This document shows, in pieces, positions 637-29,626 of a stretch of 46,643 nt of DNA (positions are counted from its first letter, which is position 1; every line of letters begins with the position of its first letter). This DNA comes from Clostridia bacterium (GTDB taxonomy: Bacteria; Bacillota; Clostridia; Oscillospirales; CAG-272). The position numbers and the translations under genes were made by a program. The notes below the pieces were generated by a model, which was not told the DNA's origin, searched no databases, and was given only the letters and a program-made list of their open reading frames with translations. The stretch lies in assembly GCA_028720145.1 (NCBI GenBank), contig JAQYLJ010000030.1, positions 1 through 46,643 of the forward strand. Direction: 5' to 3'.

Positions 637-1218
637 ATGGAACTTGAACAAATTGTTTCCACCAACTTGACAGCACTCAGAAAACAGCACGGTTGGACAC
701 AAGCGGAACTCGCGGAGAAAATACACTACTCCGATAAGTCCGTCTCCAAATGGGAGCGGGGAGAAGCACTTCCGGACTTAAAGGTTCTGAAAACCCTGGC
801 GGAACTCTATGGGGTCACCGTGGATTTCTTTCTGAATGAGAATGCTCTCGACGAGCCGAATGCCTATATCGCGACCGAGTCGAAACTGCGCTACCAGATT
901 TGGGTGACGCTCCTCGCGGTCTGTATCGTATGGCTGAGCGCGACCATCTTCTTTGTTTATCAGCTCATCAACAACAACACCTCGTTCTGGACGGCGTTCG
1001 TATGGGCGGTGCCCGGGACGGCATTCATTCTTCTCTATTTCGATTACCGTTTTTTCCACGGGAAATGCCGATTCTTCATCTGTTCGGTGTTCCTTTGGGG
1101 ACTCATCACCGCCGTCTTTTTGCAGTGGTTGGAGTACGGTCTGTGGGCGCTCTACTTCATCGGCGTGCCCGCACAGATTGCCCTTGTGCTCATGCATCAG
1201 ATTCGCCGCAGTCGGTAA
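637..1218 (+). CDS. XRE-family helix-turn-helix regulator with membrane domain
   Basis: Residues 6-61 form a Cro/C1-type helix-turn-helix (TQAELAEKIHYSDKSVSKWE with the usual WERG turn), a DNA-binding domain of the XRE family. Residues 87-187 hold about four hydrophobic segments, so the protein is probably a membrane-anchored transcription factor, a layout common in Firmicutes. The start at 637 fits the family N-terminus; no Shine-Dalgarno sequence is visible, and the promoter lies almost directly on the ATG. The gene stands alone between repeat-filled spacers and ends in a strong terminator. The signal it senses is unknown. Confidence 0.85.
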   Translation: MELEQIVSTNLTALRKQHGWTQAELAEKIHYSDKSVSKWERGEALPDLKVLKTLAELYGVTVDFFLNENALDEPNAYIATESKLRYQIWVTLLAVCIVWLSATIFFVYQLINNNTSFWTAFVWAVPGTAFILLYFDYRFFHGKCRFFICSVFLWGLITAVFLQWLEYGLWALYFIGVPAQIALVLMHQIRRSR

Positions 1219-5079: not shown

Positions 5080-6850
5080 GACCATTTCGATTTTCTTTGC
5101 AGCCGATGACAACTTTGTCAAATATACCATGGTGGCGATCACCTCGCTGAAAGCGAACGCCAATCCCCGCCGCCGTTATCATATCCGTATTTTACAGACC
5201 CATGTCTCGGATATCTACCGCAACGCGTTCACGCACTTGCAGGACAAAAACTTCAAAATCGAGTTTGTGGATGTGACCGAATACATGGAGAAATACGGCT
5301 CCGCCATGCATGTCCGCGACTACTACACCAAGACGACCTATTTCCGCCTCTTCATCGCGCAAATGTTCCCGCACCTGAAAAAAGCCATCTATCTCGACAG
5401 CGATATGGTGGTTCTCGGCGATATCGCCGAACTCTACGATCAAGACCTCGGAGACAACTATGTCGCCGCCTGCCCCGAACAGGCGATGGCGCAGACCGAA
5501 GTCTACGGACACTATGTCGAGGCGGTCATGGGCATCGACCGCAACGAGTATTTCAACGCGGGGATGCTGGTCATCAACTGTGAACTGTTCCGTCGGGACA
5601 ATGTCCTCGGGAAATTCCTCGACCTGCTCGGGAAATACACCTTTGTCGTCACCCAGGACGAGGACTATCTGAATGTCATCTGCGAGGGGCGGGTCCTCTG
5701 GCTCTCGCCCGCGTGGAACACCGAGGTGTACGGGGAACTGCCCGTCGCGGAAGACGAGATGAAGATTATCCACTACATCATGGTGGCGAAACCTTGGCAT
5801 TTCCACGACTGTCGCCTGAAAGAATACTTCTGGAAGTACGCCGAACAGACCCCCATGGTCGACAAGATCCATGCGGAACTCGCCGCCTATACCGACCTCG
5901 AACGCGCACAGGACCTCGCGTCCTGCGACCGCCTCGCGGCGCTCGCCGAGAAAGAGGCGAAAAGAGAGGACAGTTACTTCCGCATCATGCACCCGGGTCT
6001 CGACCCCGAGCGCGTGAAAATCAAAAAAAAAATAGAGCGGTTTGAAAAGGAAGCGCGGTTCGACGAGGATGTCGAGGACGACCCGCCCACGCGCCAAATC
6101 AAACCGGGCGAGGTCGACTTCGAGAGAAAGACCCCTGCCGCCCGCCTCGGGGCGCGCATGGCGTTCGCCGCCGCACGCAAGTTCGTCGACCAACTGATAA
6201 AAGACGGGAAACTGCGGATCGCGGGCTACCCGGGCATCGAGCATTTCCAAAACCTGAAAAGCGGCGCGGTCGTGACCTGTAACCACTTCAACGCCTACGA
6301 CAGTTTCGCCATGCACCTCGCCTATGACGAGTCGAAGCAGAAGAAGAGACGCTTCTTCCGCGTGATTCGCGAGGGGAACTATACCAACTTCCCCGGGTTT
6401 TACGGGCTGCTCATGCGGAACTGCAACACCCTCCCGCTCTCGTCCAACCCCAAGGTCATGTCCGAGTTCGTCCATGCCACCTGCAATCTGCTGCGAGACG
6501 GGAACTTCGTACTCTTCTATCCCGAGCAGAGTATGTGGTGGAACTACCGCAAGCCGAAACCCCTGAAAAGCGGTGCGTTCCGTCTCGCGGCACGCAACCA
6601 TGTGCCGGTCCTGCCCTGCTTCATCACGATGGAGGACAGCGAGGATATCGGCGAGGACGGCTACCCCATTCAGATCTATACCGTCCATGTATCGGAGCCC
6701 ATCTATCCCGACCCGAATAAAACCATCACCGAAAACACCGAGATGATGATGAAAGAGAATTATCGGGTGTGGAAAGAAATCTACGAGAAGACCTACGGGG
6801 TACCGCTCACCTATACCTGCCCGAAAGAAAAACTCGAAGCACTCCTGTAA
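5072..6850 (+). CDS. GT8 glycosyltransferase - PlsC acyltransferase fusion
   Basis: A 592-residue two-domain protein. Residues 1 to about 270 are a GT8 domain (ISIFFAADDNFVKYTMVAI; D-x-D at Asp 109/Asp 111 in YLDSDMVVL; FNAGMLVIN). After a charged linker, residues about 370-592 form a PlsC acyltransferase with CNHFNAYD (His 405, Asp 410, canonical HX4D), FYPEQSMWW (Glu 485) and VPVLPCFI. It could glycosylate an acceptor and acylate the product, or join a larger complex with the three upstream gene products. The ATG at 5072 is chosen over a TTG at 5045 because AGGAGG sits 9 nt before it. A hairpin terminator follows. Confidence 0.88.
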   Translation: MNETISIFFAADDNFVKYTMVAITSLKANANPRRRYHIRILQTHVSDIYRNAFTHLQDKNFKIEFVDVTEYMEKYGSAMHVRDYYTKTTYFRLFIAQMFPHLKKAIYLDSDMVVLGDIAELYDQDLGDNYVAACPEQAMAQTEVYGHYVEAVMGIDRNEYFNAGMLVINCELFRRDNVLGKFLDLLGKYTFVVTQDEDYLNVICEGRVLWLSPAWNTEVYGELPVAEDEMKIIHYIMVAKPWHFHDCRLKEYFWKYAEQTPMVDKIHAELAAYTDLERAQDLASCDRLAALAEKEAKREDSYFRIMHPGLDPERVKIKKKIERFEKEARFDEDVEDDPPTRQIKPGEVDFERKTPAARLGARMAFAAARKFVDQLIKDGKLRIAGYPGIEHFQNLKSGAVVTCNHFNAYDSFAMHLAYDESKQKKRRFFRVIREGNYTNFPGFYGLLMRNCNTLPLSSNPKVMSEFVHATCNLLRDGNFVLFYPEQSMWWNYRKPKPLKSGAFRLAARNHVPVLPCFITMEDSEDIGEDGYPIQIYTVHVSEPIYPDPNKTITENTEMMMKENYRVWKEIYEKTYGVPLTYTCPKEKLEALL

Positions 6851-7384: not shown

Positions 7385-8500
7385 TTAGTTTTTGAAATAC
7401 TGATAGAGATAACACGGAATCATGCCGTTATAGAGCTTCCGCACCTTGTCCGCCCGTTTCCCGTACAGGCGCTCGAAGCCCTCGTGCGAGGTGATGAGAT
7501 AGACCTGCCACGGGGAGAGGGAGCGGAAGTGCACCCCGAGCTCCCGATAGAGCCGCTCGACCTCCTCCGGCGTGGAGAGCCGTTCTCCGTACGGCGGATT
7601 CGTGACGATGGTGCCGCGGCGGTCGGGGGCGGAAATCTCCCGTGCGTCCGCCCGAAAGGTGCGTACCCAGTCCCCCACCCCTGCGCGCGCGACATTCGCG
7701 CGGGTGAGTTCCACACAGGCAGGGTCTAGGTCGGACGCGTAAATCTCGATGGCGGTATGGAGACGGGTGTCCGCCGCTTCCTCCCGCGCGCTGTCCCAGA
7801 GTTTTTTCGGGAACGCGGGAAACGCTTCGGCGGCAAAGTGCCGCCCTGCCCCCGGGGCGATATGATTCGCCAGCATCGCGGCTTCAATGGCGATGGTGCC
7901 CGAGCCGCACATGGGGTCCCACAGCAGGACATTCTCCCGCGGGCGGCTGTATGCGGCGATCGCCGCGGCGAGGGTCTCCCGCAGGGGTGCGGCATTCGCT
8001 TCGGGGCGGTAGCCGCGTTTATGGAGCGGGACACCACTTGTGTCAATCATGAGCGCGACTTCGTCTTTGAATAGGAAAAATTCGATTTGGTATTTGACCC
8101 CCGTCTCTTCAAACCGGCGGATGCCGTAGACCTCGCCGAGCCGTGTGACCACGGCTTTCTTAATAATGCTCTGACAGGCGGGGAGAGAGGTCAGAGCCGA
8201 GCGGATGCTGTGCCCTTTGACGGGGAAAGCGTCCTGCCGCCCGATCCACGCCTCCCACGGGAGCGCGCGCGTCCCCTCAAAGAGCTCGTCAAAGGTCGCG
8301 GCGCGGAACTCGCCCAGGTTGATATAGACCCGCTCGGCATAGCGGAGAAAGATGTTCGCGAGCGGTGCGGTCTCCTCGTCGCCGAGAAAGGTGACACGCC
8401 CGTCGATGGTTTTCTCTCGGTCGTAGCCGAGGGCGTCGATTTCCTCCCCGAGCAGGTGTTCCAGCCCGAACAGGCAGGTCGCCGTATAGCGGATACGCAT
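7385..8500 (-). CDS. THUMP-domain class I SAM-dependent RNA methyltransferase (RlmL/YpsC family)
   Basis: A 371-residue protein. The N-terminal part is a THUMP-type RNA-binding region (ending near VKYQIEFFLFKDEVALMIDTS). It is followed by a methyltransferase domain with the SAM-binding block LLWDPMCGSGTIAIEAA and the N6/N2-amino catalytic motif TNPPYGER. This is the architecture of the short Firmicutes relatives of E. coli RlmL, which makes m2G in 23S rRNA; the exact target base is inferred. Its AGGGGG Shine-Dalgarno and a good minus-strand promoter (8533-8561) support the start. It is transcribed away from ribF. Confidence 0.88.
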   Translation of the reverse strand: MRIRYTATCLFGLEHLLGEEIDALGYDREKTIDGRVTFLGDEETAPLANIFLRYAERVYINLGEFRAATFDELFEGTRALPWEAWIGRQDAFPVKGHSIRSALTSLPACQSIIKKAVVTRLGEVYGIRRFEETGVKYQIEFFLFKDEVALMIDTSGVPLHKRGYRPEANAAPLRETLAAAIAAYSRPRENVLLWDPMCGSGTIAIEAAMLANHIAPGAGRHFAAEAFPAFPKKLWDSAREEAADTRLHTAIEIYASDLDPACVELTRANVARAGVGDWVRTFRADAREISAPDRRGTIVTNPPYGERLSTPEEVERLYRELGVHFRSLSPWQVYLITSHEGFERLYGKRADKVRKLYNGMIPCYLYQYFKN

Positions 8501-17253: not shown

Positions 17254-17282
17254 TTGCAAATAAAAAACGAGTATGTTACAAT
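17254..17282 (+). promoter_or_regulatory. Promoter of the WYL operon
   Basis: TTGCAA, 17 bp, TACAAT. The leader to the ATG at 17437 is about 148 nt. Confidence 0.75.
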
Positions 17283-17436
17283 GATGGCATACCGCCCCCA
17301 CCGCGCACGACGGGGGCTAGAGGGAGAAAAGAACAGGCGGAAATCCGAAAACCCCCGCAAAAGACCCCCTCGCGCGAGCGGAAACCTGCGGAGCGGGACG
17401 GCGGGAGGGACAAAACCAAACGAAAGGAGCCGAGCG

Positions 17437-18672
17437 ATGGCGTATAACGAACTCATCAAAAATTTCGAAAAAGTCAGAGCGTATATGCGCGAGTTCTATG
17501 TCTACGGATTCAAGAGCCGTAGCGAGTACGATGCCAAAAGCGCGCGCTCCTATGACGACGAGCGCCGTCGGCTCGAAAGCTGGCTGGGCGACTATATGCG
17601 GTTTACGCAGACGGCGGAGGGGAAGAATGTCTTTCTGTCGGTCGACAGCCGTGTCACGCACAAGAACCCTTTCTACAAGGCGTGGAAAGCAAAGAGTTTC
17701 ACCGACGGGGATATCACCCTGCACTTCGTGCTGTTCGATATTCTGAACACCCCCGAAGTCAAGAAGACTCTCGCGGAGCTCATCGAGGAGATTGACGAGC
17801 GACTTCTCGCCCGCATGACCTTTGACGAGTCCACCGTCCGCAAGAAACTGAAAGAATATACCGAAGAGGGGATTATCCAAACCGAAAAGGTCGGGCGCAA
17901 GGTCTATTACAGCCGTACCGCCGACACCGACCTCTCCGCCCTCGACGATGTGATCGACTTTTTCAGCGAGGTCGCCCCTTGCGGCGTGGTCGGGTCGTAT
18001 TTACAGGATAAGCAACCCGCACACAAAGACCTCTTCTCGTTCAAGCACCACTACATGACGCAGGCGATGGACAGCGAAGTGACGGCGACCCTCTTCGACG
18101 CCATGCGGGCAAAATCACATATCACGGCGGACAATTTCAACAGAAACGCTCGCCCCGCGTCCAATCCCGTCTGCATCGTCCCGCTGAAAATCTATATCAG
18201 CGCGCAAAACGGACGGCAGAATCTCATCGCCTACCACGAGCGGGCAAACGGGTTCGTGACCTATCGGTTAGACTATCTCTCGAATGTCCGCATCGGGGAG
18301 CCCTGTGAAGCATACGACGCGCTGCGCGAGCAGCTCAAACGGGCGGAGGCGCATATTTGGGGCGTGAACTGCAAGCGGAATACCAAGCGGACCGAGCATG
18401 TGGAATTTGTCCTCAAAATCGAGGACGGCGAGCAGTATATCGTCCGCCGCATGGAACGCGAGAAACGGTGCGGCGAGGTCGAGAAAATCGACGAGCACCA
18501 CTACCGCTTTTCGGCGGATGTCTATGACACGACCGAGATGCTGCCGTGGATCCGTACCTTCATCTCCCGCATCACGCAGATGAACTTCTCCGACCGCACC
18601 GCCGAGAACAAGTTCAAGGCGGACATCCGGGAAATGTATCGTATGTACGGCATCGACGGAGGGGACGCATGA
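17437..18672 (+). CDS. WYL-domain transcriptional regulator (first of pair)
   Basis: A 411-residue protein. Residues near 125-160 form a winged helix (STVRKKLKEYTEEGIIQTEK followed by VGRKVYYSR). A WYL ligand-binding domain follows (PLKIYISAQNGRQNLIAYHE, then NGFVTYRLDYLSNVRIGEP). WYL domains sense ligands such as nucleic acids or nucleotides in DNA-damage (PafBC) and phage-defence regulators. The ATG at 17437 is chosen because AAAGGAG precedes it by 7 nt; the upstream in-frame extension crosses the promoter. It overlaps the next gene by 4 bp. The two may act as a PafBC-like heterodimer. Confidence 0.85.
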   Translation: MAYNELIKNFEKVRAYMREFYVYGFKSRSEYDAKSARSYDDERRRLESWLGDYMRFTQTAEGKNVFLSVDSRVTHKNPFYKAWKAKSFTDGDITLHFVLFDILNTPEVKKTLAELIEEIDERLLARMTFDESTVRKKLKEYTEEGIIQTEKVGRKVYYSRTADTDLSALDDVIDFFSEVAPCGVVGSYLQDKQPAHKDLFSFKHHYMTQAMDSEVTATLFDAMRAKSHITADNFNRNARPASNPVCIVPLKIYISAQNGRQNLIAYHERANGFVTYRLDYLSNVRIGEPCEAYDALREQLKRAEAHIWGVNCKRNTKRTEHVEFVLKIEDGEQYIVRRMEREKRCGEVEKIDEHHYRFSADVYDTTEMLPWIRTFISRITQMNFSDRTAENKFKADIREMYRMYGIDGGDA

Positions 18673-19577
18673 TATTCAGTGAATTGTATTCGGTCTATTA
18701 CAATACGGTCGCCAAGATTATGGAGACGGCGCTGCGCCCGGGCGCGACCGAGCGGGACTTACAAAAATGCGTCACGGAACAGGCGTTCTCCGAGAGCGTT
18801 CTGACCATTCTGCCCGCGCTGAAAACCGGGAGATGGCCGCTCCTCTCGGAAGACCTCACTCCCGTGCTGCATCACCCGCCCACCATGCCGCTCACCACGC
18901 TCGAAAAGCGCTGGCTGAAAGCCATCTCCCAAGACCCGCGCGTGCGTCTGTTCGGCGTCGAGTTCCCCGACCTCTCGGATGTGGAACCCCTCTTTTGCGA
19001 AGAGGATTACCGCGTCTACGACCGCTATGCGGACGGGGACCCCTTCGAGGACGAGACCTATATCAAACATTTCCGTTTGCTGCGCGATGCGATCGGGAGC
19101 GGTCGCCCCGTCAAGATTACCATGACCGATAGGCGGGAGAGGGAGCTGTGGGTGCGGTTCTTCCCGCGGGGGTTCGAATACTCCGCCAAGGACGATAAGA
19201 TTCGCGTGATTGCCGAGGGAAGCAAATTTAAGCGCTTCAACCTCGCCAAAATCGAGAGCTGCGTCTACTACAACGGGCAGGGATCGTGGAAAATGAAACC
19301 GCCCGTCGAACGGCGAAAAGACCTCACGCTGCTGATTACCAATCAGCGCAACACCCTCGAGCGGGCCATGCTCCACTTCGCGCACTTCGAGAAGCAGGCG
19401 GAGCGGCTGTCGGACGGCAGATACCTCTTGCGGCTAAAGTATTACGAGAACGACGAGACAGAACTCGTGATTCGCGTGCTCTCGTTCGGTCCCTACATAC
19501 GGGTGACCGCGCCCGAGGACTTCGTCAACCTCATCAAAAACCGATTAAAATCTCAAAAAGACTGTGGACTCAAATGA
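18669..19577 (+). CDS. WYL-domain protein (second of pair)
   Basis: The 302-residue product begins MIFSELYSVYYNTVAKIM at an ATG that overlaps the previous stop. The central part (RDAIGSGRPVKITMTDRRE, then FKRFNLAKIESCVYYN) is a WYL-like domain. The C-terminal part (RYLLRLKYYENDETELVIRV, then GPYIRVTAP) is the WYL C-terminal extension. The N-terminal part is helical, and its DNA-binding motif is less obvious than in the first gene. The stop codon lies inside the terminator hairpin. Its position next to an RNA-repair operon suggests, but does not prove, that the pair regulates it. Confidence 0.8.
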   Translation: MIFSELYSVYYNTVAKIMETALRPGATERDLQKCVTEQAFSESVLTILPALKTGRWPLLSEDLTPVLHHPPTMPLTTLEKRWLKAISQDPRVRLFGVEFPDLSDVEPLFCEEDYRVYDRYADGDPFEDETYIKHFRLLRDAIGSGRPVKITMTDRRERELWVRFFPRGFEYSAKDDKIRVIAEGSKFKRFNLAKIESCVYYNGQGSWKMKPPVERRKDLTLLITNQRNTLERAMLHFAHFEKQAERLSDGRYLLRLKYYENDETELVIRVLSFGPYIRVTAPEDFVNLIKNRLKSQKDCGLK

Positions 19578-19593
19578 GTTCGCAGTTTTTTTT
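19561..19593 (+). terminator. Terminator overlapping the WYL operon stop codon
   Basis: ACTGTGGACTC - AAAT - GAGTTCGCAGT (11 bp, two G-U pairs) followed by eight T. The TGA stop (19575-19577) spans the loop and the 3' arm, so terminating ribosomes may affect folding. Confidence 0.9.
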
Positions 19594-19595
19594 CC

Positions 19596-19624
19596 GTGAA
19601 AAACACAGAATCCATGCGTATAAT
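19596..19624 (+). promoter_or_regulatory. Promoter of the non-coding RNA / rtcB leader
   Basis: GTGAAA, 17 bp, perfect TATAAT, directly after the WYL terminator. Expected start near 19631. Confidence 0.65.
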
Positions 19625-19630
19625 GAGCAT

Positions 19631-19903
19631 GTCAACGGAAAACGGAAGACATTTCCAAAGCCCGAAAGGCACGAACAGCAAACGATTGGATCTATAAATA
19701 ATAGCTTTGCGGGTTGATTCCCGCCCCTATGTGCCTTGTTCCCAAAGACGCGTACAGCAAATATGCGAGACTTTTATTACGCCCCGAGTCGATTTCGTCT
19801 CCCATCTGTGCGGACAGAGAGACGGGCTCACCGGTTAAGGCGTCTTGTTTTCGAGAAATTGGGAAGTTCCGTTTTCCGTTCGGTGTCGAGAGACACCGTT
19901 TTT
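19631..19903 (+). ncRNA. Candidate tRNA-like / Y-RNA-like RNA with two tandem domains
   Basis: There is no reading frame of note between this promoter and rtcB. Domain A (19666-19737, 72 nt) is closed by AAGGCAC / GTGCCTT and contains GCGGG-TTGATT-CCCGC, which resembles a tRNA T-arm. Domain B (19745-19846) is closed by AAGACGC / GCGTCTT and contains GAGTCGATTTC and a long CGTCTC...GAGACG hairpin. Both read ACAGCAAA two bases after the 5' arm and GTT after the 3' arm. The closing helices differ at two positions with both partners changed, which supports RNA structure. An intrinsic terminator at 19881-19903 would end the RNA. Bacterial Y RNAs (YrlA) are tRNA mimics encoded near Ro60 genes, and an rtcB plus Ro60-like gene follows here. 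A structured rtcB leader is the alternative. Confidence 0.6.
19881..19903 (+). terminator. Intrinsic terminator upstream of rtcB
   Basis: CGGTGTC - GAGA - GACACCG followed by TTTTT. It would end the small RNA, or attenuate transcription into rtcB, which starts 70 bp later. Confidence 0.85.
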
Positions 19904-19909
19904 CGATAG

Positions 19910-19929
19910 GGTCTCCCCTGCGGGAGACC
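19910..19929 (+). promoter_or_regulatory. Second hairpin in the rtcB leader
   Basis: GGTCTCCC - CTGC - GGGAGACC, a perfect 8-bp stem without a T-tract, 6 bp after the terminator. No separate rtcB promoter was found between it and the gene. Confidence 0.5.
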
Positions 19930-19972
19930 ACTGAATGCAAAACACAAAAAAGCCGACGAAAGGAGAACAACC

Positions 19973-21181
19973 GTGTTTGAGATTATCGGAAAGATGAACA
20001 CCGCTCTTTGCTATGCGACCGTGGTCGAGGATGAAGCAATCGAGCAAATCAAGAGGATGTGCGACTACGAATTTACGCAGGGCGCGAAAATCAGAATCAT
20101 GCCGGATGTTCACGCCGGCACGGGGTGCACCATCGGTACGACCATGACCATCGTCGATAAGGTGGTGCCCAATGTGGTAGGGGTGGATATCGGATGCGGC
20201 ATGTATACCGTGGAACTCGGACGGGTGGATATCGACTTCGAGCGCGTCGACGAAGCGGCGCACTACATACCGAGCGGCAAAAACACCTGGGAGGGCAGAA
20301 CCGAGCGTTTTGACCTGACCGTCCTCCGCTGTTATCGCTATTTGAAGAACGCCGCGCGCATGGAGAGAAGTCTCGGCACTCTCGGTGGCGGCAACCACTT
20401 CATCGAGGTGGATGAGGCGAGCGACGGCACCAAGTATCTGGTGATCCATTCGGGGAGCCGCAACCTCGGCAAGCAGGTCGCAGAATACTATCAGCATTTG
20501 GCGATCGACTTAAACGCCGGCAAGGCGGACCTCTTCGAGAGAAGAGATGAGCTGATTCGCACCTACAAGGAGCAGGGGCGCCGCAAGGAGATTCAGGCGG
20601 CACTCAAAGCGCTCGAAAAGGAATGGACGGCGAAGGAGCCGACCCTGCCCCCCGACCTCTGCTATCTCGAGGGGAGCTATCTCGATGACTACCTGCACGA
20701 TGTGGAGATCTGTCAGCAGTTCGCCCGCCGCAGCCGCGAGAGAATGGCGGAGATCATTCTCGCACGCACCGGCATGACTGCGGTCTCGGCGTTCCACACC
20801 ATTCACAACTATATCAATGTCGAAGAGCGCATCCTCCGCAAGGGTGCCATCGCCGCGCATGAGGGCGAGCTCGTCCTAATTCCCATCAATATGCGGGACG
20901 GCAGCGTCCTCGCGAGAGGGAAAGGAAACCCCGACTGGAACTATTCCGCTCCCCACGGCGCGGGTAGACTGATGTCGCGCACCAAAGCCCGCGAGACCCT
21001 CGACATAGAGGAATACAAGCAGATGATGGAGGGGATTTATTCCACCTCGGTCTGCGAGGAGACCATCGATGAAGCGCCCATGGCGTATAAGTCGCTCTCC
21101 GACATTATCGATGTCATCGGCGAGACCGTCGAGGTCCTCGAAGTCCTGAAACCCATCTTTAATTTCAAGGCGTCGAACTGA
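19973..21181 (+). CDS. rtcB: RtcB-family RNA-splicing ligase
   Basis: A 402-residue RtcB. It joins RNA ends carrying 2',3'-cyclic phosphate or 3'-phosphate to 5'-OH ends, using GTP and Mn2+. Conserved elements are all present: DVHAG (45-49), GVDIGCGM (Cys 75), GGGNHFIE (His 142), IHSGSRN (His 159), HNYINVEE (His 278) and the guanylylated-His block APHGAGR (His 328). The GTG start at 19973 follows AAAGGAG. It is the first protein gene after the structured RNA and is followed by a Ro60-like gene, so RNA repair is the likely role. An archease gene is not visible nearby. Confidence 0.93.
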   Translation: MFEIIGKMNTALCYATVVEDEAIEQIKRMCDYEFTQGAKIRIMPDVHAGTGCTIGTTMTIVDKVVPNVVGVDIGCGMYTVELGRVDIDFERVDEAAHYIPSGKNTWEGRTERFDLTVLRCYRYLKNAARMERSLGTLGGGNHFIEVDEASDGTKYLVIHSGSRNLGKQVAEYYQHLAIDLNAGKADLFERRDELIRTYKEQGRRKEIQAALKALEKEWTAKEPTLPPDLCYLEGSYLDDYLHDVEICQQFARRSRERMAEIILARTGMTAVSAFHTIHNYINVEERILRKGAIAAHEGELVLIPINMRDGSVLARGKGNPDWNYSAPHGAGRLMSRTKARETLDIEEYKQMMEGIYSTSVCEETIDEAPMAYKSLSDIIDVIGETVEVLEVLKPIFNFKASN

Positions 21182-21218: not shown

Positions 21219-22691
21219 ATGCTGCAAGCACTCAAAGAAGAGTCGAACACGGCTCTGACCGAAAACGGCGCGGTCACCTACGCGAGTACCCTGTCCGACT
21301 GTCTCGACCTGTTCGCTGTCATCGGCGCGCTCCGCGATGCGTCCGACGACGATATTTGCGTCCGCTTCCTCGATGCGTACCGAGAGGACCCCGACCTCGC
21401 GATGAAGATTCTGTTCTTCGCGCGTGATGTTCGCGGGGGTCTCGGCGAGCGCCGCGTGTTCCGCGTCCTCTGCCGCCGTCTGGCGGACTATGCGCCCGAC
21501 TCGATGCGGAAAAACATCACTCGGATTCCCGCATACGGGCGGTACGACGATCTGCTCGCACTTTTGGGCACCCCCTGTGAAGAGGACGCCCTGCGGCTCA
21601 TTAAGGAGCAGTGGGAGGAGGATATGTCGTCGGACGCGTCGGACGGCGCGGTCTCCCTGCTCGCCAAATGGCTCCCCTCGGTGAACGCCTCGAACGAAAA
21701 AACCGTGCGGATGGGAAAGCGGGTTGCCCGCGCGCTCGGCATGACCGACGCGCAGTACCGCAAGGCACTCGCCCGCCTGCGTCGGAAAATCCAAATCATC
21801 GAGAACCATCTCCGCGAAAAGGACTACACCTTCGACTACGAAAAGCAGCCCTCGCGGGCGATGTTCAAGTACCGCCAGGCGTTCTGCCGCAACGATGCGG
21901 CACGGTATGAAGCGTACCTCGACAGCGTGCAAAAGGGCACCGCCACCATGCACACTGACGCCCTGATGCCCTACGATATCATCACGCCCTGCTTTGATGA
22001 TTGGATGGGAACCCGCAAACTGTCCGCCTCCGCGCGCAAGGCGATGGATGTGACATGGGCTTCCCTCCCCGACTTTGCCGGCGATGAGAACGCGCTTGTG
22101 GTCGTGGACGGCTCCGGCTCCATGTATACGGATTGCCGTCCCCTGCCCATCACGGTCGCACTGTCTCTCGGCATCTATTTTGCCGAGCGGAACACCGGCG
22201 CGTTCCGCGGACACTTCATCACCTTCTCCGAGACCCCCCGCCTCGTCGAAATCAAAGGCAAGAATATCGCGGATAAGGTATGCTATTGCGCCCGTTTCAG
22301 CGAGGTGGCGAATACCGACCTCACGGCGGTCTTTCGCCTGATTCTGGACGCGGCGGTGAGACACGCTGTGCCGCAGGATGAGATGCCGAAACGGCTTTAT
22401 ATCGTTTCGGATATGGAGTTCGACGGTTGCGCCGAACACGCGGACGAAACCAACTTCGCATACGCGAAAAAACTCTTCGAGGACAGCGGCTATCATCTGC
22501 CCGAGGTGGTGTTCTGGAATGTATGCTCCCGTCATCGGCAGCAGCCCGTCACCCGAAACGAGGCGGGCGTCGCGCTGGTCTCGGGCTGTACCCCGCGGCT
22601 CTTCTCGTCTGTCGCGGGCGGCACAGTCTCGCCCTACGCCGCGATGATGGAGATTCTGTCGGACGAACGCTATGCGGACATTTCCGCCTGA
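21219..22691 (+). CDS. DUF2828 / TROVE-like protein with von Willebrand A domain
   Basis: A 490-residue protein that starts with the LTENGAVTYASTLSDCLDLF block I associate with DUF2828. A helical-repeat region follows (ILFFARDVRGGLGERRVFRV; IPAYGRYDDLLALLG). The C-terminal half is a vWA domain with an intact MIDAS, DGSGS (Asp 297, Ser 299, Ser 301). This is the domain order of Ro60, the ring-shaped protein that binds misfolded RNA and Y RNA. The gene lies 37 bp after rtcB with its own AAAGGAG, so the two are one operon. Binding to the upstream RNA is inference. Confidence 0.85.
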   Translation: MLQALKEESNTALTENGAVTYASTLSDCLDLFAVIGALRDASDDDICVRFLDAYREDPDLAMKILFFARDVRGGLGERRVFRVLCRRLADYAPDSMRKNITRIPAYGRYDDLLALLGTPCEEDALRLIKEQWEEDMSSDASDGAVSLLAKWLPSVNASNEKTVRMGKRVARALGMTDAQYRKALARLRRKIQIIENHLREKDYTFDYEKQPSRAMFKYRQAFCRNDAARYEAYLDSVQKGTATMHTDALMPYDIITPCFDDWMGTRKLSASARKAMDVTWASLPDFAGDENALVVVDGSGSMYTDCRPLPITVALSLGIYFAERNTGAFRGHFITFSETPRLVEIKGKNIADKVCYCARFSEVANTDLTAVFRLILDAAVRHAVPQDEMPKRLYIVSDMEFDGCAEHADETNFAYAKKLFEDSGYHLPEVVFWNVCSRHRQQPVTRNEAGVALVSGCTPRLFSSVAGGTVSPYAAMMEILSDERYADISA

Positions 22692-25914: not shown

Positions 25915-28900
25915 TTAGGCTTCTGCGACGAGGGCGAGGAAGTCCGCGTAGGAAATCCCGTAGTTGACGGCGTAGGTCGCGTTGACATACACCTGACCGG
26001 CATTCGCGTCCGCCCACTTGCTGTCGGTGATGCGGAACTCGTGTCCGGGATTGACACCGATGACATTCCAGTCCGCGCTCCAGGTCGACGGCAGGGCATC
26101 TGCCGAGGCGAGATCGGTGCCGATCGCGAGGGTGTCGGAGCAACCGCTGAACAGACACCGTCCGACACCGTCCTGCCCAATCAGGGTGCTCGACGAGAGA
26201 TAGACGGCTTTCAGCGAGGTGCAACCCGCGAAGGCGTAGTCGCCGATGGAAGTGATGGACGAATTGATGACGATCGTCTCAATGTCGGTTCTGCCGTAGA
26301 ACGCATACGCCGAGATGGAACCGCCGCCCGGGATGGTCGGGAGCACCACATTCTTCTCTGTGCCGCGGTAACCGACGATGACCTTCTTGTTGTAGATGAG
26401 GAAGCCGTTTTCATCCTCTTTGATGAGGGAGTTCTTCATGCTGTTCTGTTTGCTCGTGACATGCGAGTTTTTGTCGGTCAGGTTACCGATATTCGCACTC
26501 CCGAGATTCACGACCTCGGTGAGGTGCGGGCAGTCCGCGTACCAGTAGTTCCCGAACGAGGTGACCGATGCCGGGAATACGCATTGAACGAGCGAGGTGC
26601 AACGGTTAAAGCAGAACGCACCGATGGACGCGAGCGTGTCGGGGAACGAAATCTCGGAGAGGGCGGAGCAACCGGCAAAGCAGTTCATGCCCAGCGCGAG
26701 GTTCGCACCTGCCGAGATGGTGACGACGCGCAGATTCTTACATTCCGAGAAAGCGCCGTCTCCGACGGTCGAGAGGACCGTGCTGTTCAGGGTAATCTCG
26801 GTGAGAGGCGTATTCGAGAATGCGTGCCCGTCAATGGCTTGCAAGTTGGTCGAGAGGGTCGCAGATTCGAGCGCGGAAGAATCGAAGGCGTGTGCTCCGA
26901 TCCGAAGGATTCTGTTGCTGAAAGTGACTTTCGTGACCGCGGAGTACGCAAATGCGTAGGGGGCGACGGAGTATCCGCTCCCGTTGTAGTTCGCGGGGAG
27001 GGTGATCTCGGTTGCGTCTCCGGTGTAACCGAGCAGGTAGTACATGGTTCTGGTGCCGGCTCCGCTCTCGACTTCCATCGCATAGAAGAGATAGTCATTG
27101 GTCGCGAGGATGCCCGAGACGGTCGTAACGGAAACCGCGTTACGGGTAAGTCCGCCGTTGGTGTAGGCACCCGCCGTCAGGGTGAGCGCGGTGTTGTTAT
27201 GGTTGACGACCTCCCAGAGGTAATGGCAACCGTTGAACGCGGAGGTGCCGATATCGGTAAGACCCGCACCGACCGTCACGCTCATCAGGCGGGAGCAGTT
27301 TTCAAACGCGTGCGCGCCGACCGTCTCTACACTGTCGGGCAGGACGAGTTGCAGGAGCCGCGCGTTCTCGTAGAACGCGTATTCTCCGATGGTGGTGAGA
27401 GTGGTCGGGAGTGCAAAGTTTTCAAGACGGGAGCAACCCGTAAACGCATAGGGAGCGATCGCGGTGACCGCGCCGTTCGCATTGACGGTTTTGAGGTTCT
27501 CGCAACCCGAGCAGAGCAGTTCGGGGATGGAGGTGACACCCGTGCCGAGCGTCAGGGTGACAAGACCGCTCTCTTGGAACGCGGATACCCCAAGGGTGGT
27601 GACGGCGTTCGGGACGGTGACACGCGTGAGTGCGGAGCAGCCATAGAACGCCGAGTCCCCGATGGTGGTGAAGCCGCTCGAGGTCGGCAGGGCGATCGAG
27701 GTCAGCGCCGTGCAGCAGGCGAATGCTTCTTTCCCGATGGCAGTCGGTTTGGCATTGGTAGCGTCAACCGTTTCGAGAGAGAGACAGTCGGCGAATGCGC
27801 GGTTGCCGATCTCGATGACTCCCGCGGGGATGGTGACGGATTGCAGACCGACACAGCCGCGGAACGCATTTTCGGAGATGCGATAGGATTTCCCGTTATA
27901 ATCGGCGGGGAGGGTCAGGTCGGTGTCCGTGCCGGTGTAGCCGATGAGATAGACATTCGAGGCGTTCGAGGGGTCTGCCATGAATACGAATCCGTCCACT
28001 TCGTCGAGTCGGAATTCATCCAGCGAGCGACCGATGGTGAAGGGCGTGTAACGCGCGACATTCCCGCAACTCGATGTGCCTTTGTTGACGCGCAGGGTAC
28101 CGTTGTTGATGACATCCGCCAAGCGGTAGCAACCGAGGAATGCCGCAGAGTCACTGCTGATGAACGTCTCCTCTCCGATGATGACCCCGAAGAGCGAGGT
28201 GCAGTCGCGGAACGCGCCTTCCCCGATATCATCGACCGAGGAGAGGTCGACCGTATGGATTGCGGTATTCCGGAACGCATTCCGACCGATTGCCGTGAGG
28301 GAGGCGGGGAAAGTGACATTCGAGAGCGCCGTGCAGCCGCGGAACGCATCTTCTTTCACTTCGGTGAGCGACGAAGACAGGGTGACCGACGAAGGCAGGG
28401 TGACCGAGACGAGTGAAGTGCACCCGCTGAACAGTCTCTCGGGAATCACTTTCAGCGTGTTCGGGAGGACGACCGAGGTCAGCGCCGTGCAGTTCGCGAA
28501 AGTGGCGGCGGGGATGGTCGAGACCGACTTCCCGATTGTAAGAGAAGTCAGCTTCTGCGCCCCTTCAAAGATGCCGCTCGCGGAGGCGGAGGCGGTTGAT
28601 TTCTTTGCGTTCCAGGTCAGCGTTTCGAGTGACCGACAGTTCGCGAACGCGTCGGCTTTGACCACCATCACGCCTTCGCCGACCGAGAGGGTCTTCATCT
28701 CGGAGCAGTTCGCAAAGGCGGAAACGCCGATGGTCTTCACGCTGTTCGGGATGGTGACCGAGGTCAGCTGGGTATTTGCGTAGAATGCGTAATCGCCGAC
28801 AGCCGTCGCGGTCTCGGGGAGGGTCACTTCGGTGGCTCTTCCGTCGTAGCCGACCACGATGGTCTCTTCAAACAGCAGAAAGCCGTTCGCATCCGTCTTG

Positions 28901-29550
28901 ATGGCGGAAGCCCCGGGCGCGACGATCTCCTGAATCTGATCGCAGCCGGAGAATGCGGCGGTCGCGCTGCTCTTGATGGCGTCGGGAATCTGTACCGAGA
29001 CGAGGGACAGGCAGTTCTCGAACGCCTTCGATTCCAAATTGGTCACACCGTCGAGATTGACCTCCCGCACACGGTAGCAGTTGCGGAACGCGCCGGTCAT
29101 GATCGACTTGACGCCCCCCGCGGTGATGACGCGGCGGAGGTTCGAGCAATTCTCAAACGCCCCTCTGCCGATTGCCTGAACGCCGCCGAAGTCAATCCAG
29201 ACGATGGCGTCCATATCGGAGAACGCGTAGGCGGCGATGTCCTTAACATCCCTCCCGAAAGTCAGAGAGGTGACCTCGGACGCATATTGCTTCCACGCCG
29301 GGGTCTCGCCGTTCAGGTCGTAATTGTACATGGTGTCGACCATGCCGTCCACCACCATGGAGCCGTCTGCGTAGATCTTCCATGTCGCGCCGTCGGACGA
29401 GGTCCCCTCATGCACCACGGCACCCGACGCGGTGAGCGAGAGGGTCGACCCGTCTCCGTCTCCCGGAATCGCGGCAACGCAGGAAAAGAGACAGAAGACC
29501 GAGAGGGTCAGCACGAGCGCCAATCCAAACAGTGTTACGAGTTTCTTCAT
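25915..29550 (-). CDS. BspA-type leucine-rich-repeat surface lipoprotein
   Basis: A 1211-residue protein. Residues 1-24 are a signal peptide ending in LFSC, a plausible lipobox with Cys 24. Nearly all the rest is LRR_5 repeats of about 23 residues (for example VTIPNSVKTIGVSAFANCSE). Four short blocks of the form GY(T)G...LP occur near residues 230, 530, 835 and 1050 and divide the array into modules. Such proteins are exported and often bind host or matrix proteins. ATG 29550 is chosen because GGAGG lies 8 nt upstream; an in-frame TTG at 29565 overlaps that site. No sortase motif is seen, which fits a lipid anchor. Confidence 0.88.
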   Translation of the reverse strand: MKKLVTLFGLALVLTLSVFCLFSCVAAIPGDGDGSTLSLTASGAVVHEGTSSDGATWKIYADGSMVVDGMVDTMYNYDLNGETPAWKQYASEVTSLTFGRDVKDIAAYAFSDMDAIVWIDFGGVQAIGRGAFENCSNLRRVITAGGVKSIMTGAFRNCYRVREVNLDGVTNLESKAFENCLSLVSVQIPDAIKSSATAAFSGCDQIQEIVAPGASAIKTDANGFLLFEETIVVGYDGRATEVTLPETATAVGDYAFYANTQLTSVTIPNSVKTIGVSAFANCSEMKTLSVGEGVMVVKADAFANCRSLETLTWNAKKSTASASASGIFEGAQKLTSLTIGKSVSTIPAATFANCTALTSVVLPNTLKVIPERLFSGCTSLVSVTLPSSVTLSSSLTEVKEDAFRGCTALSNVTFPASLTAIGRNAFRNTAIHTVDLSSVDDIGEGAFRDCTSLFGVIIGEETFISSDSAAFLGCYRLADVINNGTLRVNKGTSSCGNVARYTPFTIGRSLDEFRLDEVDGFVFMADPSNASNVYLIGYTGTDTDLTLPADYNGKSYRISENAFRGCVGLQSVTIPAGVIEIGNRAFADCLSLETVDATNAKPTAIGKEAFACCTALTSIALPTSSGFTTIGDSAFYGCSALTRVTVPNAVTTLGVSAFQESGLVTLTLGTGVTSIPELLCSGCENLKTVNANGAVTAIAPYAFTGCSRLENFALPTTLTTIGEYAFYENARLLQLVLPDSVETVGAHAFENCSRLMSVTVGAGLTDIGTSAFNGCHYLWEVVNHNNTALTLTAGAYTNGGLTRNAVSVTTVSGILATNDYLFYAMEVESGAGTRTMYYLLGYTGDATEITLPANYNGSGYSVAPYAFAYSAVTKVTFSNRILRIGAHAFDSSALESATLSTNLQAIDGHAFSNTPLTEITLNSTVLSTVGDGAFSECKNLRVVTISAGANLALGMNCFAGCSALSEISFPDTLASIGAFCFNRCTSLVQCVFPASVTSFGNYWYADCPHLTEVVNLGSANIGNLTDKNSHVTSKQNSMKNSLIKEDENGFLIYNKKVIVGYRGTEKNVVLPTIPGGGSISAYAFYGRTDIETIVINSSITSIGDYAFAGCTSLKAVYLSSSTLIGQDGVGRCLFSGCSDTLAIGTDLASADALPSTWSADWNVIGVNPGHEFRITDSKWADANAGQVYVNATYAVNYGISYADFLALVAEA

Positions 29551-29626
29551 AGGTTGCGCCTCCAAAAAAGTACTGTCTTGCCCGCCGCGCGATGCGCGCG
29601 CGGACAGAGCAATTTTAAGTGAATAG

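Follow-up and report, generated by a model that had tools for sequence, protein, structure and literature searches.

The window analysed here, a stretch of 46,643 nucleotides taken as a whole, raises the question of what is encoded in the gap between a pair of genes for WYL-type regulators and the genes for the RNA ligase RtcB and a DUF2828 protein. The YrlA Y RNAs are tRNA mimics encoded together with Ro60 (rsr), and RtcB genes are often their neighbours. A preliminary description of the window had placed two tandem tRNA-like RNA domains in this gap and read them as a duplicated Y-RNA-like RNA that either partners the DUF2828 protein or is a substrate of RtcB. The analysis indicated that both domains belong to a large class of short RNAs that seems not to have been described before. 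These RNAs imitate pieces of tRNA; in gut bacteria they stand in arrays next to a Ro60-like gene and genes for RNA repair, and they are also found in some phages.

The features of the region at positions 19,596-19,903 and of the genes flanking it are listed in Table 1. The promoter, the two domains (here called modules) and the terminator described earlier were all present. The two closing stems differed, as had been noted, at two base pairs, each changed on both sides, and both modules carried the shared ACAGCAAA inside the 5' arm and GTT after the 3' arm. The T-loop-like motif assigned to both domains was found in both as a sequence (GGTTGATT and AGTCGATT), but a clean T-arm-like hairpin was formed only around GGTTGATT (GCGGG-TTGATT-CCCGC in module 1, 19709-19724), its loop being one base shorter than TTCGATT.

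Table 1. Features of the gap and of its flanking genes in the window.
Feature	Position	Strand	Remarks
wyl1, WYL-type regulator, first of a conserved pair	17254..18672	+	start taken as the start codon of the longest ORF
wyl2, WYL/WCX-type regulator	18669..19577	+	
Conserved element GAGTTCGCAG + T8CCGTGA, upstream of the -10 box	19576..19599	+	probable promoter/operator
-10 box TATAAT	19619..19624	+	similar hexamers at similar spacing in many relatives (by eye)
Outer helix, 5' strand AACGGAAAACGGAA	19634..19647	+	
RNA module 1	19666..19737	+	stem AAGGCAC (19666-19672)/GTGCCTT (19731-19737), then GA, ACAGCAAA (19675-19682), T-arm-like hairpin, tail GTT
RNA module 2	19745..19846	+	stem AAGACGC (19745-19751)/GCGTCTT (19840-19846), then GT, ACAGCAAA (19754-19761), long hairpin payload, tail GTT
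Outer helix, 3' strand TTCCGTTTTCCGTT	19867..19880	+	
Intrinsic terminator CGGTGTC-GAGA-GACACCG + T5	19881..19903	+	hairpin itself 19881-19898
rtcB, RNA ligase	19973..21181	+	Pfam RtcB PF01139, E 3e-56
DUF2828 + DUF7788 protein, Ro60-like	21219..22691	+	Pfam; phrog_850; hhalign; putative ring plus vWA architecture

A perfect outer helix of 14 bp encloses both modules. The 274-nt region folded better than its shuffled versions (z -3.83, 0/200), and the values for the single modules were z -1.46 for module 1 (13/200 shuffles) and z -2.09 for module 2 (1/200 shuffles). As the minimum-energy fold of module 2 alone lacks the closing stem, this stem rests on covariation and not on energy. The earlier statement that the region holds no reading frame was too strong, since two mechanical ORFs run across it, one of 88 aa (+, 19714-19980) and one of 92 aa (-, 19692-19970); nothing in the analysis backs either of them as a gene. 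The preliminary description had also proposed comparisons with the YrlA family model and with tRNAs, and the region matched neither: no tRNA was found in the window by ARAGORN or with RF00005, no Rfam family reached its gathering threshold, and the region gave no match to YrlA (RF02553) even at E 10, the other Rfam matches being weak and far below gathering. Elsewhere in the window, the minus strand carries a repetitive, leucine-rich ORF of 1216 aa (25915-29565), which gives the impression of a cell-surface protein.

For the comparison with relatives, 93 loci were assembled: 80 bacterial loci (the best 80 of 136 relatives of the DUF2828 protein from a scan of genome contigs), 8 loci from viral contigs, 4 from further genomes and the window, with L001 and L002, the window's own, excluded. 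Cultured Butyrivibrio and Anaerotignum strains are among the carriers that the contig scan listed. The gene order wyl1-wyl2-gap-DUF2828/rtcB recurs, and the gap measures from 164 to 3546 nt where wyl2 is co-directional. The modules share one design, in which a 5' arm, mostly AARRYRC, is followed by 0-2 nt, ACAGCAA, a payload, the 3' arm GYRYYTT and then G (commonly GT). A constant frame is formed by the stem of 7-9 bp together with ACAGCAA, which hardly varies and sits next to the 5' arm, on the 5' strand of an inner loop whose 3' strand is often A-rich; the payload varies.

A search for 7-bp stems beside ACAGC[AG] found 295 modules upstream in 85 of the 93 loci, compared with 11.2±2.6 in 20 dinucleotide shuffles, and the positive loci had 1-9 modules each. 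About 11 of the 295 are thus expected by chance; one counted for L033 looks like a chance match, and the real module of that locus lies at 5709. The loci without a module by this finder were L021 (132 nt upstream in the data), L044, L052, L058, L071, L079, L091 and L094. In L044, L052 and L058, the modules lie before DUF2828 and not before the rtcB gene that comes first. In these three loci (Mogibacterium and Clostridiales MAGs), they stand directly before DUF2828 and beside tRNA genes, and ARAGORN found 27 (L052) and 26 (L058) tRNA genes in the upstream stretch.

A stricter finder, which requires G after the full stem, gave 281 forward-strand modules versus 5 on the reverse strand when whole loci (1.07 Mb) were searched. 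Most of the 281 (256) were situated upstream of the first gene at a distance of at most 1500 nt; another 11 were upstream at a greater distance, and 14 lay on its downstream side. In 84 of the 93 loci there was a module within 2600 nt upstream. The 7-bp finder had G as the next base in 86 of its 295 modules, a figure that is too low, since in stems of more than 7 bp the base after the seventh pair still belongs to the stem.

The same was seen in an even sample of the class, which comprised 391 genomes. Of these, 18 had a DUF2828 protein, and 16 loci were taken, the window's own genome and one fragment being excluded. Fourteen of the 16 showed 1-5 modules (35 upstream, none downstream, 3 on the reverse strand), three of the 14 repeating earlier contigs (L027, L054, L070). 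The misses were L148, with a homologue of 27% identity, and L149, with a gene fragment at a contig end. The bare 16-base pattern AAAGRYRCNACAGCAA was matched 35 times over the 391 genomes and its reversed control 37 times; it missed the window itself owing to linker length and tests nothing. In the intergenic region of L009 (5076-6000), a block of three modules is followed at once by a second one whose arms and payload lengths are similar, which suggests that the arrays grow by block duplication.

The pair counts of both finders are no evidence of covariation, because these finders demand pairing. For the covariation test, sites were therefore picked by their 5' side alone, with the pattern AARRYRC, which admits transitions only, and the reverse complement of each arm followed by G was sought about 20-220 nt downstream. 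In the main set, 246 of 258 sites had their own arm, as against 52±5.7 (maximum 70) in 1000 random deals, a null that ignores relatedness; there were no such sites on the reverse strand, and a non-own arm was found in 7.4%. In an independent set, made up of the 11 even-sample loci left after removal of the two misses and the three repeated contigs, the own arm was present at 25 of 27 sites against 5.3±1.9 expected under a null that likewise ignores relatedness, with none on the other strand. The covariation of the module stem is decisive, and the conservation and covariation in relatives with the same operon, on which the preliminary description had made its reading depend, were confirmed.

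The stem variation, tallied from modules whose finder demands pairing and AA/TT ends, consists almost entirely of compensated transitions, G-C to A-U at arm positions 3, 4 and 6 and C-G to U-A at position 5; a small number of transversions occurs at positions 6 and 7. Neighbouring modules had the same arm in 11 of 175 cases (loci L003-L094 and the window), that is, more rarely than the 24.7 expected. This avoidance of identical neighbouring stems perhaps prevents mispairing between modules.

The payloads were examined in 257 unique modules, of which 219 have ACAGCAA; counted from ACAGC, the payloads measure 28-162 nt, with a median of 68. Hairpins with a 5-bp stem and a 7-nt loop numbered 156, compared with 47±7 in 30 shuffles. 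Anticodon-like loops (YUNNNRN, a pattern that T-loops also fit) were seen in 86 of the 257 modules versus 3.0±1.8 in shuffles, and T-loops numbered 47 versus 0.4. With the T-loops removed, 70 modules retained anticodon-like hairpins with 30 different anticodons, a count made without a shuffle control. The commonest anticodon-like loops include CUUUUAA, CUGAAAA, CUUCUAA, CUCAUAA and CUUGAAA, which are loops known from real tRNAs, and the modules of one locus differ in payload. A script, likewise run without a shuffle control, classified 53 of the 257 payloads as having an anticodon-like hairpin only, 29 as having a T-arm only, 15 both, 7 as tRNA-like with an acceptor, 1 as permuted and 152 as having neither hairpin nor T-arm. 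Five module payloads passed the tRNA model RF00005, namely two in L008 and one each in L013, L016 and L038; one of the two in L008 has ACAGCC instead (by eye). A further RF00005 match, L013 5376-5447, was rejected as a sixth module payload, as it lies between modules without ACAGC and the frame; it is a tRNA-like element with a long acceptor stem. The tRNA likeness claimed earlier thus belongs to the variable payloads and is seen in many modules of the class; in the two payloads of the window itself it is weak, with no ARAGORN, tRNA or YrlA match.

Permuted modules with D, T and acceptor arms were present in L036 and in the phage loci L096, L097 and L101. Their order is anticodon arm, T-arm, closed acceptor and D-arm, and the same order was seen by eye in the Y RNAs beside TROVE genes. 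The possibility that the anticodon loop of a permuted tRNA is split by the closing stem was given up after folding: in L101, the anticodon arm forms an unbroken hairpin, next to which the chain opens. Against the YrlA model (gathering threshold 69 bits), the permuted modules scored 45.2 and 34.3 bits in L101, 41.6 bits in L036 and 21.7 bits (E 4.8) in L096; that of L097 gave no match at E 5. The Y RNAs beside TROVE genes scored 39.9, 39.8 and 27.9 bits in three of four loci, all below gathering. The best permuted modules therefore reach scores like those of the Y RNAs that accompany true TROVE genes, and this likeness to the model supports a Y-RNA-like reading. The earlier notion of a duplicated Y-RNA-like RNA keeps its second half through these relatives (45, 42 and 34 bits); the window's domains, however, are two members of a modular array class and not one duplicated Y RNA. 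Another weak YrlA match (28.4 bits), at L101 4202-4302, falls within the tRNA region of this Enterococcus phage, close to a pseudo-tRNA in the annotation.

The four TROVE loci (L151-L154) have Y RNAs with a CGAGGCG...CCTCG frame instead, and the YrlA model recognises those of three. Each of these loci gave one ACAGCAA candidate, and all four were rejected, three lying in likely coding sequence and one in a repeat. Beside the TROVE gene of L151, which has Y RNAs, a repeat of CRISPR-like type was observed at 815-845 (+); it matched RF01315 with 30.9 bits, below gathering.

The window's DUF2828 protein matched phrog_850, 'RNA-binding protein', over its length at E 1.8e-129. An alignment of the DUF2828 family compared by hhalign with four TROVE proteins, which themselves match Ro60 structures at 2e-32, gave E 1.6e-4 and a probability of 51% over 154 columns covering the linker and vWA. 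Pfam found DUF2828 and DUF7788 only in the protein, with no TROVE (PF05731) at E up to 0.001, and a search of the PDB with the DUF2828 alignment profile (hmmsearch) retrieved neither Ro60 nor a relative. In the available text of a study of Listeria phages, an HHpred match to Rsr is given for a phage protein (PMC12282133), which, judged by its position, is taken to be a DUF2828 homologue. The relation between DUF2828 and TROVE suggested by these comparisons is moderate, and so is the support for the Ro60-like protein of the preliminary description.

Neighbouring genes were counted in the 50 bacterial loci of at least 12 kb. By tblastn, rtcB was found in 37, wyl1 in 36 and wyl2 in 36; ORF clusters, which undercount, gave RlaP in 9, an ADP-ribosylglycohydrolase in 4 and a kinase-like protein in 1. 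Ten of the 50 had neither rtcB nor RlaP in the flank. RlaP, an RNA-repair nucleotidyltransferase, is predicted, in the part of the source available, to put back the bases that are lost when anticodons are cut (PMC7824862); it is also found beside the TROVE gene at L152, with 49% identity. The DUF2828 gene itself is scattered: within the genus, 3 of 36 genomes have it, and overall 5 of 59 do, own genome included in both counts.

The wyl1 protein matched Pfam WYL at E 2.8e-4 and PaaX at E 9.4e-5, and the wyl2 protein matched Pfam WCX at E 9.9e-5, all just under the cut-off; with the PADLOC WYL profile, the values were 1.6e-9 and 3.3e-8, respectively. A single-sequence phmmer search of the PDB, a weak test, gave nothing below E 0.3 for either protein, and no match was named as a WYL protein; a likeness to the solved structures of WYL pairs, as in regulators of the PafBC type, was thus not seen by this search. 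T4-9CCGTGA was present in 35 of the 53 loci with a co-directional wyl2, mostly at most a few tens of nt past the wyl2 stop codon. Inspection of the other 18 by eye revealed a T7CC variant in 13 (CCAAGA, CCATGA, CCACGA, CCAGGA or CCGTGC) and none in the 90 nt inspected in 5. In the window's own genome, T7CCGTGA occurs once, as does its reversed control. We infer that the WYL pair binds the T7CCGTGA promoter element.

Among 50,697 phage records, 673 had a relative of DUF2828; most of the features listed there carry the label hypothetical or RNA-binding protein. Several of the relatives adjoin a tRNA cluster, which in L097 was recognised with Rfam. Modules were accepted by eye in 9 of 15 phage-collection loci (L095, L096, L097, L099, L100, L101, L102, L156 and L162), and 6 had no convincing module (L098, L157, L158, L159, L160 and L161), KVP40, beside a tRNA cluster, being among the latter. 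In L096, phage CELFI of Mycobacterium smegmatis mc2 155, three modules lie downstream of the Ro-like gene 53, at about 7460-7710. In phage modules, the stem sequence is free and ACAGCAA is kept. A relaxed finder gave 32 forward and 4 reverse places in phages; since it also gives reverse-strand places, some of the forward ones in phage coding sequence are chance. Within the short flanks searched, rtcB was present in 2 of 23 phage and viral loci. One of them, L102 (MT837221.1), is an unverified metagenomic clone filed as a bacteriophage, in which a 78%-identical rtcB precedes DUF2828 and the upstream modules are as in bacteria; the record may be a bacterial contig. The other is phage A511 (L095), with three modules directly upstream of the DUF2828 gene, in a stretch common to 54 Listeria phage records, and an rtcB of 45% identity 1.3 kb downstream of it (L095 8842-10047).

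In the Listeria phage CKA15, three highly transcribed unannotated regions are reported at most 2 kb upstream of an Rsr-like gene, near tRNA genes; the Rsr-like protein was detected in purified particles, and the authors suggested Y RNAs (PMC12282133). These putative Y RNAs resemble the modules in their place upstream of an Rsr-like gene, and they may correspond to the three modules directly upstream of the gene in the related A511. They differ in that the available text of that study names no motif, module or array. A Vibrio jumbo phage with a Ro60-related protein (PMC7765460) and some jumbo phages with a ROT/TROVE protein (PMC7824862) are also mentioned in the accessible parts of the respective sources.

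The loci probably represent a separate, second Ro60/Y-RNA-like system, in which modular tRNA-mimic arrays are part of a WYL-linked RNA-repair operon. In the mechanism that we propose from the sequence comparisons, DUF2828 would bind the frame (helix and ACAGCAA) and present the payload. Payloads imitating anticodon arms and tRNA bodies of many specificities would act as decoy or bait for tRNA-cleaving nucleases in infection or RNA damage, RtcB (and in some loci RlaP too) would mend the cut tRNAs, and the WYL pair would switch the operon on via the conserved T7CCGTGA promoter element. The role of the payloads as decoy or bait is put forward tentatively. It is favoured over decay-enzyme tethering and over RtcB substrates because it agrees with the range of anticodons, with the neighbouring genes for RNA repair and with the position next to tRNA clusters in phages. 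Against the reading as a whole stand the 152 of 257 payloads with neither a clean anticodon-like hairpin nor a T-arm, the weak tRNA mimicry of the window's modules, the moderate relation between DUF2828 and TROVE, the six phage-collection loci with no convincing module, and the low or missing YrlA scores of L096, L097 and the window. A competitive-inhibitor role similar to the decoy idea is suggested for YrlA in the available text of one study (PMC7790460). It is also conceivable, with more doubt attached, that bacteria and phages share anticodon decoys, a variable repertoire of short RNAs, each displaying an anticodon arm or tRNA body of one specificity, on a common Ro60-like carrier; the repertoire would soak up or sense tRNA-cleaving nucleases in phage-host conflict and would be renewed by gain, loss and duplication of modules.

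A possible alternative, ranked below the decoy, is a tether as in RYPER, in which the frame would bind the DUF2828 ring and the tRNA-like payload would recruit a PNPase-type enzyme for RNA decay or quality control, with no decoy role. This mode is known for Rsr-YrlA-PNPase from the available part of PMC8394870, some permuted modules have a YrlA-like core, and the RlaP neighbour is shared with the TROVE locus L152. However, YrlA mimics the D, T and acceptor arms according to the same source, whereas many modules here have only anticodon-like hairpins, and many anticodon specificities, with payloads differing within a locus, are more than one tether would need.

The modules are unlikely to be RtcB substrates. 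In that case they would be tRNAs in permuted or interrupted form, opened at the inner loop and then rejoined by RtcB to give mature tRNAs or circular RNAs. The frequency of rtcB in the larger bacterial loci, its presence near DUF2828 in phage A511 and the existence of permuted tRNA payloads would fit such a role. From 196 genomes, 41 of which had a match, 30 rtcB loci were retrieved. None of the 25 without DUF2828 had modules in flanks of about 1.5 kb, while 2 of the 5 with DUF2828 showed them, the window being one of the two. In L165, L167 and L169, the stretch stops short of the upstream side of DUF2828, and the same genomes show modules in the even sample. Conversely, 13 of the 50 larger bacterial loci have no rtcB in the flank, and modules were found in 13 of these 13 by the 7-bp finder and in 12 by the stricter one. 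The modules follow DUF2828 and not RtcB, which lowers the substrate reading offered earlier and upholds the tie between structured tRNA-like RNAs and the DUF2828 gene. Moreover, rtcB is rare in the short phage and viral flanks, the folded permuted modules open between the D-arm and the anticodon arm and not within the anticodon loop, and only one main-set module was called permuted by the script.

It is very improbable that the region is a cis-acting leader, T-box-like or an attenuator, which senses tRNA and controls the downstream repair genes. Its place between promoter and coding genes, with the window's set ending in a terminator directly before rtcB, would suit a leader, but arrays of 1-9 modules with differing payloads, the modules downstream of the gene in phage loci L096, L097 and L099, and the weak Rfam matches of the window, none at gathering, would not. 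Decayed tRNA genes or functionless repeats, to which the often imperfect tRNA payloads and the possible block duplication in L009 might point, can practically be dismissed, since a constant frame with compensatory stem changes and an ACAGCAA kept even in phages would not survive decay.

Compared with known systems, the modules and YrlA (RF02553) with Rsr/Ro60 have in common a basal stem pairing the ends, a tRNA-like domain (permuted in some modules), and a location next to the gene of a Ro-like vWA protein, frequently within an operon for RNA repair. In contrast to YrlA, the frame here is AARRYRC-N0-2-ACAGCAA...GYRYYTTG in place of that of the Y RNAs at L151-L154, the modules form tandem arrays with many payload types, the partner is DUF2828 and not TROVE, and the window's modules lack a match to RF02553. 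The permuted tRNA genes of algae and archaea are similar in that the 3' part of the tRNA precedes the 5' part, as in some modules; the modules differ from them by opening beside the anticodon arm and not in its loop. A survey by Chen (2014) is reportedly the main one of bacterial Y RNAs, phages included. The Salmonella rsr-yrlBA-rtcBA operon, as far as the available text describes it, likewise joins a Ro-like gene, tRNA-like RNA and rtcB with an inducible regulator (PMC7790460). Here, a WYL pair takes the place of RtcR and DUF2828 that of Rsr, and the RNAs form arrays; the Salmonella operon has rtcBA, whereas RtcA did not come to notice in the 28 gene clusters that recur most often here, the smaller part of which could be named. 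The papers found to name DUF2828 were, from their available text, plant studies, and none was found that joins it with RtcB. A Ro-like protein with a tRNA-mimic RNA is thus known in kind; the partner, the frame and the array form are new as far as the literature searched and Rfam 15 show, and an overlap with earlier surveys of bacterial Y RNAs is possible.

The modules represent a candidate RNA partner for the DUF2828 proteins, with a recognition motif that can be tested, and would carry the Ro60/Y RNA principle over to a second clade of proteins. Because their payloads point to named tRNA anticodons, they would offer a direct way to ask what purpose bacterial Y RNAs serve.
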